Below, piece by piece: positions 5,772 to 22,381 of a stretch of 32,157 bases of DNA. The stretch's first letter is position 1. Every line of letters starts with the position of its first letter. Both the position numbers and the translations under genes were made by a program. The DNA is from a virus: the IMG/VR virus record IMGVR_UViG_3300011115_000315, positions 1-32,157 of that record; one strand, given 5' to 3'. The notes under the pieces are model-generated. The model worked only from the letters and a program-made list of their open reading frames with translations, made no database searches and had not been told where the DNA came from.

Positions 5772-7094
5772 ATGAAAATTAATGTTGGAATTTTAATTTT
5801 TGGTGACCCTACAAGACGAGGTACTATTAATTCTGAAGTTAAATTCTTAAATAGTTTATATGAATATAACAACCAAGATTGTGATTTTTATATTATAACA
5901 GTTAATAGTAATTTTACTAAAAGAATTATAGAAAATAATAAAACTATATATAATTTTAAACATGATATAATAGAGGTGTTTAGTGAAAAGGATTTATACA
6001 AGATTAATAATATATCTTGTATAATTACTTATCCTAACCATAGTTCCTTTTATGCTGGTGTTTTAAATGATAATAACGTTTTAATGTATAAAATAATATC
6101 TTATTTAAATAACGAATTAAACAGTAAAGCTTTTATTCGTGTTAATGATTCAGAATTAAAAATAAGAGATTACAGAAGCATTTGTAAATTAAGATTAGAA
6201 CACAATCTCAGCAATAAAGAAAACAATGAAACTGTATTTATTAAAGATAAAAACAATTTAATAAAAGCTAATGATTTAATTTCTACTAAACCTTGGGATT
6301 ATTCTAAAATATTTTGGATAGCTAATGGTTCAAAAGAACATTACGATTGGGTTTCAGAAACTTTATATGATAGAGAAACTAAAATGTATAGAGTTGATAG
6401 CAAAGAACAAATAAATAAAAATACAATATATTTGTCGGATGACTTGTTGTTTTTAGTTAGAAAGAATTACGAAAGATTCAATCAAAAATATAGCAATAGT
6501 TTAAATCAAGAAAAAAAATTATGTTACATTGGTTTCTTTGATACTGTAAACAAGAAAAGAGCTAAGGCATTTGAAACTTTATTTAGTAATAACACATGTG
6601 AAATTCCAATTAAAATATTTGGAAAAGGAACAGAGATAATAGAAACATTAAAAGATAAAGAAAACATAGAAATAATAGAAGGATTTATTGAAGGTGATTC
6701 AGAAAAATACTTTGATTTTTTAAATAAACATTTAGCTTATGTTTTTATAGGAAAAGGAAATAATAAGTCTAGATACATTGGTAAAACTTTATATGATTCA
6801 GTTGTAGCAAAAACACCTGTTATAGTTTATAAAAAATGTGATACTGAAATGATATGTTTTAAAAATAAAGATTATTATTTTGAAAACGAACAAGAATTAA
6901 AAATTATTTATGATAAACTTTTAGATGATAATATTAGAAATAATTGGATTGAACAACAAAAACAAGAAATATTTAATAATTTAAAACAATGTGACTTTAA
7001 ATTTAAAGACCAATTAGTAAGTTTAAATGAACCTGTAAAAGAAATATATAAAAAAGATGATGAAATTAGTAAAAGACAACTATTATTATTTTAA
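5772..7094 (+). CDS. GT-B-like glycosyltransferase, candidate DNA-modifying enzyme
   Basis: The 440-residue protein has two lobes. The N-terminal half begins with a beta strand (VGILIFGDPTRRGTINSEVKFLNSL). The C-terminal half starts near KKLCYIGFFDT (249-257) and contains IKIFGKGTE (280-288), IIEGFIEG (301-308) and KTLYDSVVAKTPVIVYKKCD (338-357). That last element resembles the nucleotide-sugar binding end of GT-B enzymes. It lies close to a TS/dCMP hydroxymethylase homologue, which suggests glucosylation of a modified base, as T4 alpha- and beta-glucosyltransferases do. The sugar and acceptor are unknown, and modification of a surface glycan remains an alternative. Confidence 0.55.
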   Translation: MKINVGILIFGDPTRRGTINSEVKFLNSLYEYNNQDCDFYIITVNSNFTKRIIENNKTIYNFKHDIIEVFSEKDLYKINNISCIITYPNHSSFYAGVLNDNNVLMYKIISYLNNELNSKAFIRVNDSELKIRDYRSICKLRLEHNLSNKENNETVFIKDKNNLIKANDLISTKPWDYSKIFWIANGSKEHYDWVSETLYDRETKMYRVDSKEQINKNTIYLSDDLLFLVRKNYERFNQKYSNSLNQEKKLCYIGFFDTVNKKRAKAFETLFSNNTCEIPIKIFGKGTEIIETLKDKENIEIIEGFIEGDSEKYFDFLNKHLAYVFIGKGNNKSRYIGKTLYDSVVAKTPVIVYKKCDTEMICFKNKDYYFENEQELKIIYDKLLDDNIRNNWIEQQKQEIFNNLKQCDFKFKDQLVSLNEPVKEIYKKDDEISKRQLLLF

Positions 7095-7236
7095 ATTTGC
7101 AGGTGATACTTTGTATGGAAAATTTAAAGAAGTAAATATATTATACGAAGGAACAGAAGTTTATTTATTTGAAGACAAAAAAGGATACAAATATCCAATT
7201 AAAAAAGAAAACGTATGTGGCAATTTAAAACAATAA
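7057..7236 (+). CDS. Small overlapping protein, 59 aa
   Basis: ATG ATG at 7057/7060 opens a 59-residue frame (MMKLVKDNYYYFKFAG at its start; EGTEVYLFEDKKGYKYPIKK later). It bridges the gap between the glycosyltransferase and the TS-like gene and overlaps both by 38 and 22 bases. Its aromatic, beta-like sequence and dense overlap indicate a real gene, perhaps an SH3-like fold. Function unknown. Confidence 0.65.
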   Translation: MMKLVKDNYYYFKFAGDTLYGKFKEVNILYEGTEVYLFEDKKGYKYPIKKENVCGNLKQ

Positions 7237-7862
7237 CAGAAGCATTTGAGTATTACTACGAAAAGTTAGATAGTCAAGTAGAACAAATAGAAACAGGTAC
7301 TAAAGCATTATACAATCAAATGTTTACTATATTAGATACTTCTGATTCTATAGTTAGATCTGAATTTAGAAATTTTAAATTAGATTATGCTGAAAAAGAA
7401 TGGGAATGGTATTTAAGTAAAGATAGAAGTGCTGTTGAAATAGCTAAAGTAGCTAAGATATGGTATAATCACATGGATGAACGTGGTTATGTTAACTCAA
7501 ACTATGGTTGGCAATGGAGTAGAAACAATCAATTGGAATATGTAATTAAAGAACTTCAGAGGGATAAATATTCACGTCGTGCATTAATATCTATATATGA
7601 TGGTAAAGAACACTCTGAGTATTCTAAAGATACTCCTTGCACATTATCAATTCAATTCTATTTTACACCTGATTCAAGTAAACTACATATGACAGTTTTA
7701 ATGAGAAGTAATGATTTATGGTTTGGATTCTGTAATGATGCTTATACATTTTTACAATTACATAAATTAGTATGTAAATCATTAAATGTAGAGCAAGGAT
7801 TCTATACTCATTATGCGCAAAATTTACATATATATGAAAGACACTACAATAAAAAGTGTTAA
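7215..7862 (+). CDS. Thymidylate synthase-fold enzyme, probable dCMP (hydroxy)methylase
   Basis: The 215-residue protein has the TS core: SRRALISIY (120-128), catalytic Cys142 in DTPC, QFYF (147-150), RSND (164-167), and HYAQNLHIYERHY (199-211) for the final nucleotide-binding motif. An ungapped alignment of RSNDLWFGFCND with the E. coli TS motif RSxDxxLGxPFN puts Asp175 where TS has Asn177. That Asn-to-Asp change is known to switch specificity from dUMP to dCMP, as in T4 dCMP hydroxymethylase. Thr follows Cys142 where TS usually has His. The gene would make methyl- or hydroxymethyl-dCMP with a folate cofactor. With a one-residue gap, Asn174 could instead be the selector, so ordinary TS is not excluded. 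Confidence 0.75.
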   Translation: MWQFKTITEAFEYYYEKLDSQVEQIETGTKALYNQMFTILDTSDSIVRSEFRNFKLDYAEKEWEWYLSKDRSAVEIAKVAKIWYNHMDERGYVNSNYGWQWSRNNQLEYVIKELQRDKYSRRALISIYDGKEHSEYSKDTPCTLSIQFYFTPDSSKLHMTVLMRSNDLWFGFCNDAYTFLQLHKLVCKSLNVEQGFYTHYAQNLHIYERHYNKKC

Positions 7863-20684: not shown

Positions 20685-21281
20685 ATGAAGATAATAGAAC
20701 TAATAATAGACGAAAACGAAAAACTATCAGGAGTTGATGCAGTTTCAATAGTAGAATTTCCTGCAATAGAATCTAATTTTGTTTCATTAAATAAACAATT
20801 AGCATTGGCTAAAGTTGATGATGAAAAACGTATTTTAATGGGTGCTGCTTTAATTCCTAACAAGCACATTTATAGAAGAAATGGTGAAGATGAATATTAT
20901 ATTTTCTTTTCTGATGAAACAGTACGAAAAGCAAGTGAATTGTTTTTAATGAATAGCAATCAAAATAATGCAACATTAGAACACGAAAAAGAATTAAAAG
21001 ATTTGTCAATAGTTGAATCTTGGATTGTTGAAGATACAGAAATGGATAAGTCTAAAAAATATGGTTTAGATGCACCTGTAGGATCTTGGGTTGTTTCAAT
21101 GAAAGTAAACAATGATACTATATGGAATGATTTTGTTAAAACAGGTAAGGTTAAAGGATTTTCAATTGAAGGATATTTTGCTGACAAATTAGAAATGAGT
21201 TTAGAAAAAGAAAAAGAATTAGAGTTAATGGAACAAATAAAAAACATCATTTTAAATGGTGAAAAAAAAAAGTTCAATTAG
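20685..21281 (+). CDS. Prohead protease, XkdF/S78_2-type, zero-frame product
   Basis: The 198-residue product has MGAALIPNKHIYRRNGEDEY (52-71), then LEHEKE with candidate catalytic His100 (98-103), SIVESWIVED (108-117) and VKGFSIEGYF with candidate Ser160 (156-165). These are the ordered motifs of the XkdF-like S78_2 proteases that mature the phage prohead. The zero frame ends a few residues after an A10 tract (NGEKKKFN). The same tract allows a -1 shift into a HAD-like domain. It precedes scaffold and capsid genes, as expected. Confidence 0.8.
   Translation: MKIIELIIDENEKLSGVDAVSIVEFPAIESNFVSLNKQLALAKVDDEKRILMGAALIPNKHIYRRNGEDEYYIFFSDETVRKASELFLMNSNQNNATLEHEKELKDLSIVESWIVEDTEMDKSKKYGLDAPVGSWVVSMKVNNDTIWNDFVKTGKVKGFSIEGYFADKLEMSLEKEKELELMEQIKNIILNGEKKKFN
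21262..21272 (+). other. Candidate -1 frameshift site A_AAA_AAG
   Basis: Zero-frame codons GAA AAA AAA AAG TTC hold the heptamer A_AAA_AAG at 21266-21272, the same as the E. coli dnaX slippery site. After a -1 slip the next codon is GTT at 21272. The -1 frame is stopped at 21260 and has no early ATG. The A10 run could also hide a sequencing indel; one extra A would fuse the two frames. Confidence 0.65.
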
Positions 21282-21577
21282 CTAAAATATCTTTTGATTA
21301 TGATTCTACATTATCTACTGCAAAGGGTACAGAATTAGCAAAAAAACTAATAGCAGAAAATAATGATTTATATATTATTTCTGCAAGGCATTTAAAAAGT
21401 GGAATGTTAAATAAAGCTAAAGAATTAGGTATTCCTTTAAATAGAGTTTATGCAACAGGAAGCAATACTAATAAAATTAATAAAATCAAAAGTTTAAAAA
21501 TAGATACGCATTACGATAATAATGAAAATGTAATTAAACAAATTGATGGAATTGGAAAATTATTTACAAACGATTAA
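21272..21577 (+). CDS. HAD-like phosphatase domain in the -1 frame of the protease gene (no own start codon)
   Basis: The 101-residue stretch reads VQLAKISFDYDSTLSTAKG. It carries HAD motif I (DYDST, D-x-D-x-T), motif II-like IISAR, a lysine-rich KINKIK segment and motif IV-like HYDNN, so the active site looks complete. I recall similar domains fused in one frame to XkdF-type proteases of other Bacteroidota phages. Here it would be joined by -1 frameshifting to make a fusion of about 297 residues. Because an ATG appears only deep inside the domain, independent translation is unlikely. Function of the domain in the capsid is unknown. Confidence 0.7.
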   Translation, partial: VQLAKISFDYDSTLSTAKGTELAKKLIAENNDLYIISARHLKSGMLNKAKELGIPLNRVYATGSNTNKINKIKSLKIDTHYDNNENVIKQIDGIGKLFTND

Positions 21578-21587
21578 ATTAAAAATT

Positions 21588-21770
21588 ATGTCACAAAAAA
21601 CAAGTTCACCTAAAGGTGGAAAAAGAGGATGTTTATGCAAAGATGGAACTTATAATTCAGAATGTTGCAAAGGTGAATTATCAGAACAAGGAATTGGTGC
21701 TACAGTATCACAATCTAATTGTGTTGTTAAAGATTCTGCAGGTAATATAATATCAACAAGAACTAACTAA
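21588..21770 (+). CDS. Small cysteine-rich conserved phage protein, 60 aa
   Basis: MSQKTSSPKGGKRGCLCKDG is followed by YNSECCKGELSEQGIGA. The CLC...ECC cluster and GKRGCLCKDGTY motif are those of short proteins near capsid genes in Bacteroidota phages. ATG 21588 follows the A-rich leader and lies after the HAD stop, so it is preferred over an in-frame ATG at 21543 inside that domain. It might bind metal or stabilise the capsid. Function unknown. Confidence 0.65.
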   Translation: MSQKTSSPKGGKRGCLCKDGTYNSECCKGELSEQGIGATVSQSNCVVKDSAGNIISTRTN

Positions 21771-21820: not shown

Positions 21821-22381
21821 ATGAATGTAATCAATGAAATCAAAACTCTTTTGGGTATGGAAGTAAAACTTGCTCAAATGAAACTTAAAGATGGAGTTAC
21901 TGTTTTAGAAGCTGATGCTTTTGAAGTAGATAATAACGTTTTTATTGTTAATGGTGAGGAAAAAATTCCTGTACCTGTTGGAGAATACGAATTAGAAGAT
22001 GGTAACATTTTAAAGGTTGATGTAGAAGGTGTAATTGCTGCTATTGAAATGCCTGAAGAAGAAATGCCTGCTAATGAAGAAACTGTACCTTCACCTGCTG
22101 AAGTACCTGTTGAAGCAGAAGCTGCTACTCCAAAAAGAATTGTTGAATCAGTTTCTAAAGAAATGTTCTTTGCAGAAATTGAAAAATTAAGAACTGAAAT
22201 TGCTGAATTAAAATTAGCTAAAGAAGTTGTTAAAGAAGAATTAAGTTCAGATGTGATTTTTGAAAATGTTGAACCATTGACACATTCACCTGAAGTTAAA
22301 AACGAAGTTAAACTAAATAAATTATCACCTAATCGCCAAATGACTACACAAGATTTAGTTATGGCAAAACTTTTTAATTAA
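21821..22381 (+). CDS. Putative scaffolding or capsid assembly protein
   Basis: The 186-residue protein has a beta-like N-terminus (VKLAQMKLKDGVTVLEADAF), an acidic Pro/Glu-rich middle (EMPEEEMPANEETVPSPAE) and a C-terminal coiled-coil-like helix (FFAEIEKLRTEIAELKLAKE). It sits between the protease and the major capsid gene, the standard place for a scaffold. No sequence family is recognised beyond this, so the role rests on layout and position. Confidence 0.6.
   Translation: MNVINEIKTLLGMEVKLAQMKLKDGVTVLEADAFEVDNNVFIVNGEEKIPVPVGEYELEDGNILKVDVEGVIAAIEMPEEEMPANEETVPSPAEVPVEAEAATPKRIVESVSKEMFFAEIEKLRTEIAELKLAKEVVKEELSSDVIFENVEPLTHSPEVKNEVKLNKLSPNRQMTTQDLVMAKLFN

Follow-up and report, generated by a model that had tools for sequence, protein, structure and literature searches.

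A conserved A10 tract predicted to place a HAD-like domain on some copies of a phage head maturation protease

Among phage assembly genes, those for tail chaperones, capsid and tail-tube proteins are known to undergo recoding. We describe here a head maturation protease gene that ends in a run of ten A residues, where slippage would give the free protease by default and, in a fraction of products, a protease fused to a HAD-like domain lying in the −1 frame; we hold this reading at a probability of roughly 0.83. The window, the whole 32,157-nucleotide stretch of viral DNA analysed here, had already suggested this pair of products to a sequence-only reading, and the comparison of relatives presented below supports it, with the slip itself inferred. 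Most products would end two codons past the tract as the free 198-aa protease. In a fraction, either the ribosome would slip back one base on A_AAA_AAA or A_AAA_AAG, or RNA polymerase would add one A, after which reading in the −1 frame would produce a protease–HAD fusion of about 297 aa. The likely use would be that a few HAD copies enter the prohead together with the protease.

If so, the head protease of a common uncultivated phage group would exist in two forms by way of a tract that is kept despite an approximately 100-fold avoidance of such runs. Two questions thereby become directly accessible to experiment: do phages use the protease to bring enzymes into the head, and do Bacteroidetes phages employ poly-A slippage? 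Our literature search found no paper on a frameshifted XkdF protease, nor one pairing 'XkdF' with 'frameshift'.

The protease gene, its junction and the HAD-like extension

The short product is an XkdF-type head maturation protease (20685..21281, + strand; ATG at 20685, TAG at 21279-21281; 198 aa) that matches Pfam PF14550 Peptidase_S78_2 (E 2.7e-15, 56.9 bits, above the gathering cut-off of 24) as well as head protease PHROGs. Its H100 and S160 are invariant in alignment A3 of relatives, consistent with the predicted catalytic Ser/His. The C terminus reads ...ILNGEKKKFN*, encoded across an A10 tract of exactly ten A (21262..21271, +) followed by G at 21272, and the frame-0 stop TAG (21279..21281, +) sits two codons past that tract. 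Frame 0 reads GAA AAA AAA AAG TTC AAT TAG across the junction and therefore places the heptamer A_AAA_AAG (21266..21272, +) in the correct phase, overlapping a second heptamer, A_AAA_AAA (21263-21269, +). Thus a zero-frame X_XXY_YYZ heptamer coincides with an overlapping −1 open reading frame, the arrangement expected for −1 ribosomal frameshifting. The sequence-only reading had described an XkdF-type frame stopping at 21281, an A10-G junction containing A_AAA_AAG and a HAD-like domain without a start codon in the −1 frame from 21263, and each of these features is confirmed, the heptamer being correctly phased and the domain recovered both by frame reading and by its motifs.

The −1 frame is closed on its upstream side by TGA (21260-21262) and stays open from 21263 to TAA at 21575-21577, a span of 104 codons whose translation begins KKKVQLAKISFDYDST... 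It holds no ATG, GTG or TTG ahead of motif I or before the internal M47, and the sole start-containing ORF listed near this frame, which begins with TTG at 21543, is unrelated. We thus rejected a start codon of the domain's own in the window, none being present. The predicted shifted product would join 196 protease residues to 101 further residues, 297 aa in all, with VQLAK and ISFDYDSTLSTAK as the first peptides past the junction.

Membership of the extension (21263..21577, +) in the HAD superfamily rests on motifs and fold. The core of the domain starts at 21284 with motif I, DYDST, at 21296-21310 (+), and motifs I–IV are kept across 15 sequences, where D12, D14, K71 and D85 are invariant and position 40 is S/T. 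An AF2 model reached a pLDDT of 95, with the HAD phosphatase 3n07 as its top Foldseek match in the PDB (E 1.7e-3, TM 0.55) and a further match to the HAD domain of CopA (TM 0.65); these PDB scores are modest, and other Rossmann-like folds are among the matches. In the BFVD viral models, the top matches (TM up to 0.93) are 'HAD-like' and 'XkdF' proteins of uncultured phages, of which the 'XkdF' entries are, judging by name and length, in-frame protease–HAD fusions. The extension also matches PHROG 8630 'nucleotidase' (E 2.5e-5). A Pfam profile search returned no HAD model at E<1, a sequence search of solved structures gave nothing significant and a search of 50,697 phage records found no match to the domain.

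Conservation of the tract among relatives

Relatives were gathered by protein searches with the protease (80 of 482 relatives used) and the HAD-like domain (80 of >549 related viral stretches used), and further queries brought the set to 418 loci; removal of identical junctions left 286 protease loci. Such protein queries are blind to A-run length. The relatives are metagenome contigs, and related loci are mutually dependent. The phage group is large, uncultivated and probably infects Bacteroidetes. Its closest isolate relatives by protease, the Nonlabens P12024 phages, have no A10–HAD junction and carry a scaffold-like part fused instead, and none of the four Bacteroidetes MAG relatives found in a genome collection has the junction (0/4).

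A −1 HAD domain behind A10 occurs in 11 contigs, the window and ten more, with proteases that are window-like down to about 54% identity. The junction is A10-G with KKKFN* before the −1 HAD in L003, L004, L005, L009, L012, L030 and L089; L070 has A10-G followed by TAA, L040 has A10-T followed by TAG, and L108 reads KKKFN and then TAA, such that the frame-0 stop sits 0–2 codons past the tract in these relatives. A second module of about 100 aa, unrelated to HAD (ESYTDYP...GWGSCGT...WGGDAGxEWA), occupies the −1 frame at five loci, four with A10 and KKKSN* or KKKFN* (L230, L232, L263, L265) and one with A9 (L050). We leave it unnamed, as Y, because it matches no Pfam family and its all-helical model has low confidence (pLDDT 62).

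Neither A11 nor A8 was found among the −1 relatives, in which the tract is A10 throughout except for the A9 of the Y locus L050. Tract length, site (nt 577 of the ORF) and phase agree between the −1 relatives and those that carry a module in frame. The Ka/Ks ratios of the −1 HAD copies are 0.04–0.10 among near relatives and 0.10–0.25 against L040, L070 and L108, with one distant pair at 0.52. The junction comparison and Ka/Ks together indicate that the site and the −1 frame are conserved under selection. With >549 relatives of the domain, ten more contigs with the arrangement and low Ka/Ks, the −1 placement of HAD is more than chance. The sequence-only reading had named A11 or A8 tracts, or a pattern of pseudogene decay in related phages, as grounds for giving it up; neither was borne out, the comparison returning A10 in all 11 −1 HAD contigs and Ka/Ks mostly between 0.04 and 0.25.

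Some HAD domains carry an ATG of their own (L067, L071, L092-L096, L111-L113), and none of these loci has the tract. At L067, L071 and L092-L096 this ATG overlaps or touches the protease stop, and these loci probably do make HAD from it, which lends some weight to the idea that the window yields a free HAD by reinitiation at a non-standard start past the protease stop. We consider this very unlikely, given that the −1 class is without that ATG and has no ATG, GTG or TTG before motif I, and that A10 is found only where the HAD ATG is absent.

Homologues fused in one frame, which the sequence-only reading had proposed to look for, were also found: L090 is an in-frame protease–HAD fusion, L110 an in-frame fusion of module domains to the XkdF protease, and the BFVD 'XkdF' entries add to these. 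The largest in-frame set has Y in frame 0 behind A10, at about 20 loci and almost always at nt 577 of the ORF in the same phase (L006-L008, L010, L011, L013-L015, L019, L037, L039, L041, L044-L047, L058, L063, L178 and L179). Past the tract, these loci have a −1 stop after one codon and a +1 stop after two. The residues after KKK vary (TN, ID, VD, IS), and the −1 stop varies in step (TAA, TGA, TGA, TAG) and is never lost. This stop is present at 6/6 distinct in-frame EKKK junctions versus 4/29 tract-less in-frame Y junctions (Fisher p about 1e-4, in a test that ignores kinship); for ordinary Lys-Lys sites, the share at which the −1 and +1 frames are both closed within two codons is 3.7%. Two further junctions have A10: a portal–HAD fusion (L101), whose off-frames run for 1 and 2 codons before they close, and the Y/HAD junction of L110, where they run for 3 and 1. 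Because the off-frames are closed right after the tract in the in-frame class, both arrangements would give a short (about 197-aa) and a long (about 297-aa) protease, and only the default would differ.

The in-frame class also bears on whether the −1 junction is an artefact, with a base lost in assembly, or the HAD an unexpressed relic. All the sequences do come from metagenome assemblies. Independent assemblies nevertheless agree on A10, and an identical A10 leaves the in-frame class with an intact reading frame, meaning that systematic under-calling would have to affect the −1 loci alone. We therefore rejected sequencing or assembly error, since frame-correct relatives carry the same tract, and the low Ka/Ks of HAD led us to reject the pseudogene reading; taken together, artefact or decay is extremely unlikely.

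Long A-runs are mutable, and replication slippage might in principle toggle the conserved run, leaving individual phages either fused (A11) or unfused (A10). The Y relative L050, with A9 where near-identical proteases have A10, fits such phase variation. Against it, 11/11 −1 HAD contigs have A10 across a long divergence, with no A11 or A8; the protein searches did not select for tract length, and the in-frame class is likewise A10. We regard phase variation as very unlikely and retain slippage during expression as the preferred reading.

Rarity of A-runs and the route of slippage

To set the tract against its background, we counted A-runs across 907 further genes of the loci studied, 832 kb in total, with expectations from synonymous resampling under the codon use of these phages. 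Runs of A≥9 were seen once versus 103 expected and runs of A≥10 not at all versus 41 expected, while A≥8 reached 0.21 of expectation. The in-frame heptamer A_AAA_AAG was not depleted (133 seen versus 124 expected). It follows that the A10 run, rather than the heptamer, is the exceptional element, and the emphasis that the sequence-only reading had placed on a dnaX-type heptamer is not supported. Among module-less loci, an A-run of at least 8 near the protease end was present in 2/179, one of these being an A8 far downstream. The codon that completes the tract is in almost every case AAG, which these phages use rarely for Lys (11%). The approximately 100-fold avoidance of A≥9 in the genes of these AT-rich phages suggests that polymerase or replication slippage matters in their hosts.

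The exceptional status of the run shifts weight towards transcriptional slippage. Under this alternative, RNA polymerase would stutter on the T10 template and A11 mRNAs would give the fusion by ordinary translation; we place it at slightly under even odds, so that slippage by the polymerase and dnaX-type frameshifting by the ribosome are equally plausible. A10 is longer than a heptamer requires, runs of at least nine A are avoided 100-fold elsewhere in coding DNA where in-frame A_AAA_AAG is not, both alternative frames are quickly closed, and nine A's suffice for transcriptional slippage in Thermus dnaX (PMC1088944). On the other side, the usual AAG end creates a heptamer that ranks with the best for bacterial ribosomes, A_AAA_AAG being among the most efficient in E. 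coli (PMC4066793), and the avoidance of A-runs may stem from replication errors.

RNA structures near the tract differ among lineages. A 7-bp hairpin directly 5′ of the A-run (CATCATTTTAAATGGTG; 21245..21261, +), a possible lineage-specific stimulator, folds in the window group, in both L040 and L070, and at some of the in-frame Y loci. In the window group it resembles the arrangement of the Roseiflexus IS (PMC5009743), in favour of transcriptional slippage; its absence from L108 and L230 counts against that route. A possible downstream stem (21281..21339, +) starts 8 nt past the heptamer, with −12.5 kcal/mol (z −2.1) in the window and −15.9 (z −3.8) in L070, and is lost in L005 (z −0.1) and L108 (z +0.6). 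A single stimulator structure common to all −1 loci was rejected, the hairpin occurring in some and the downstream stem in two only. No SD-like sequence lies just upstream of the window's A10 tract. Bacteroidetes host ribosomes depend little on Shine–Dalgarno signals. In a Psychroflexus MAG, taken as a proxy host with an incomplete tRNA set, the only tRNA-Lys among 30 examined tRNA loci is UUU.

In dnaX, a ribosomal slip on A_AAA_AAG in E. coli and a transcriptional slip on A9 in Thermus thermophilus yield two variants that differ at the C terminus. The short form of the in-frame Y class would likewise arise by slipping. Unlike dnaX, the HAD class would make its long form by slipping, and no dnaX-type Shine–Dalgarno element is seen. 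AAAAAAG has been predicted in some phages for the tail chaperone frameshift (PMC3483164), and lambda gpG/gpGT resembles our case in placing a −1 slip close to where an assembly gene ends, although gene and role differ. T7 gene 10A/10B likewise yields one head protein in a short form and a form with a C-terminal extension, with the difference that this is the major capsid protein and that another heptamer and a distant stimulator are used.

Exchange of the tract with its module, and genomic setting

Tract and module are gained and lost together. In the pairs L230/L292, L044/L072, L014/L027 and L007/L016, the proteases are 100% identical across 175 aa, yet one member of each pair has tract and module and the other has neither. 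In the L230/L292 alignment the linker, A10 and module are absent as one block with the flanks intact. The module-less L292 protease keeps the last RNE* of the lost module, possibly a deletion scar. On the protease tree, the tract state needs 24 changes. Between L108 and the window, HAD is 85% identical and the protease 54%, the sort of difference that a module moving independently of the protease core would produce. By these comparisons, tract and module behave as an exchangeable cassette that would add a domain to some copies of a head protein, and HAD is one of at least two exchangeable modules. Somewhat better than even, in our estimate, is the broader proposal that a mobile slip cassette of A10 plus domain moves as a unit among near-identical head proteases and into the portal, with the domain held sub-stoichiometric in either frame by slipping into it (−1 class) or out of it (in-frame class).

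Further placements were seen at other loci. A portal protein (L101:1084-3159) has an in-frame HAD insertion behind A10. In haloviruses and Roseobacter phages, relatives of Y (Y itself at L006:3592-3897) are carried by proteins with prohead protease, portal and major capsid protein annotations. In L116 (2740-3759), and also in L119, L155, L160 and L167, the HAD domain sits inside the XkdF protease, in the order N-terminal segment, short Cys-containing module (FLPRCI...AVCNSMW), HAD and then protease core (PF14550 at 192-313 of 339); the protease therefore collects modules at several points. Since the carriers (protease, portal and major capsid protein) all belong to the head, the simplest purpose would be to load the head with a small number of copies of the domain. 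We infer slippage at some level, by ribosome or polymerase, and delivery into the head of a putatively active HAD.

The closest parallel is provided by the Ig-like C-terminal domains frameshifted onto structural proteins of T3, Lactobacillus phage A2 and Listeria PSA/A118 (Fraser et al., reviewed in PMC5009743), where various phage proteins carry the domain through −1, +1 or in-frame decoding and the mixture was put down to chance landing (PMC5009743). In both systems, a mobile domain is joined, in frame or by frameshift, to a fraction of the molecules of a virion or assembly protein. Here, in contrast, the domains are HAD-like (in the window, not Ig-like) and an unrelated module, and they ride on the head protease or, in one case, on the portal. 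In addition, loci with the domain in frame still retain the slip tract and have the other two frames closed, a pattern that chance landing would not predict. One tract with both polarities and two unrelated modules argues that the mixture of short and long forms is itself selected, rather than an accident of where a domain landed.

In the window, the protease belongs to the head operon and precedes a scaffold-like gene (21821..22381, +) that matches positions 205-316 of phrog_24921, the portion fused behind the protease in Nonlabens phage P12024L. Between them lies a small Cys-containing ORF without a family match (KGGKRGCLCKDGTYNSECCKGEL; 21588..21770, +), which follows the protease or the module in many relatives. 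Elsewhere in the window, a thymidylate synthase-like gene (7215-7862; PF00303, E 3e-25) adjoins a gene for a 440-aa protein without a family (5772-7094), a pair with a possible function in base modification.
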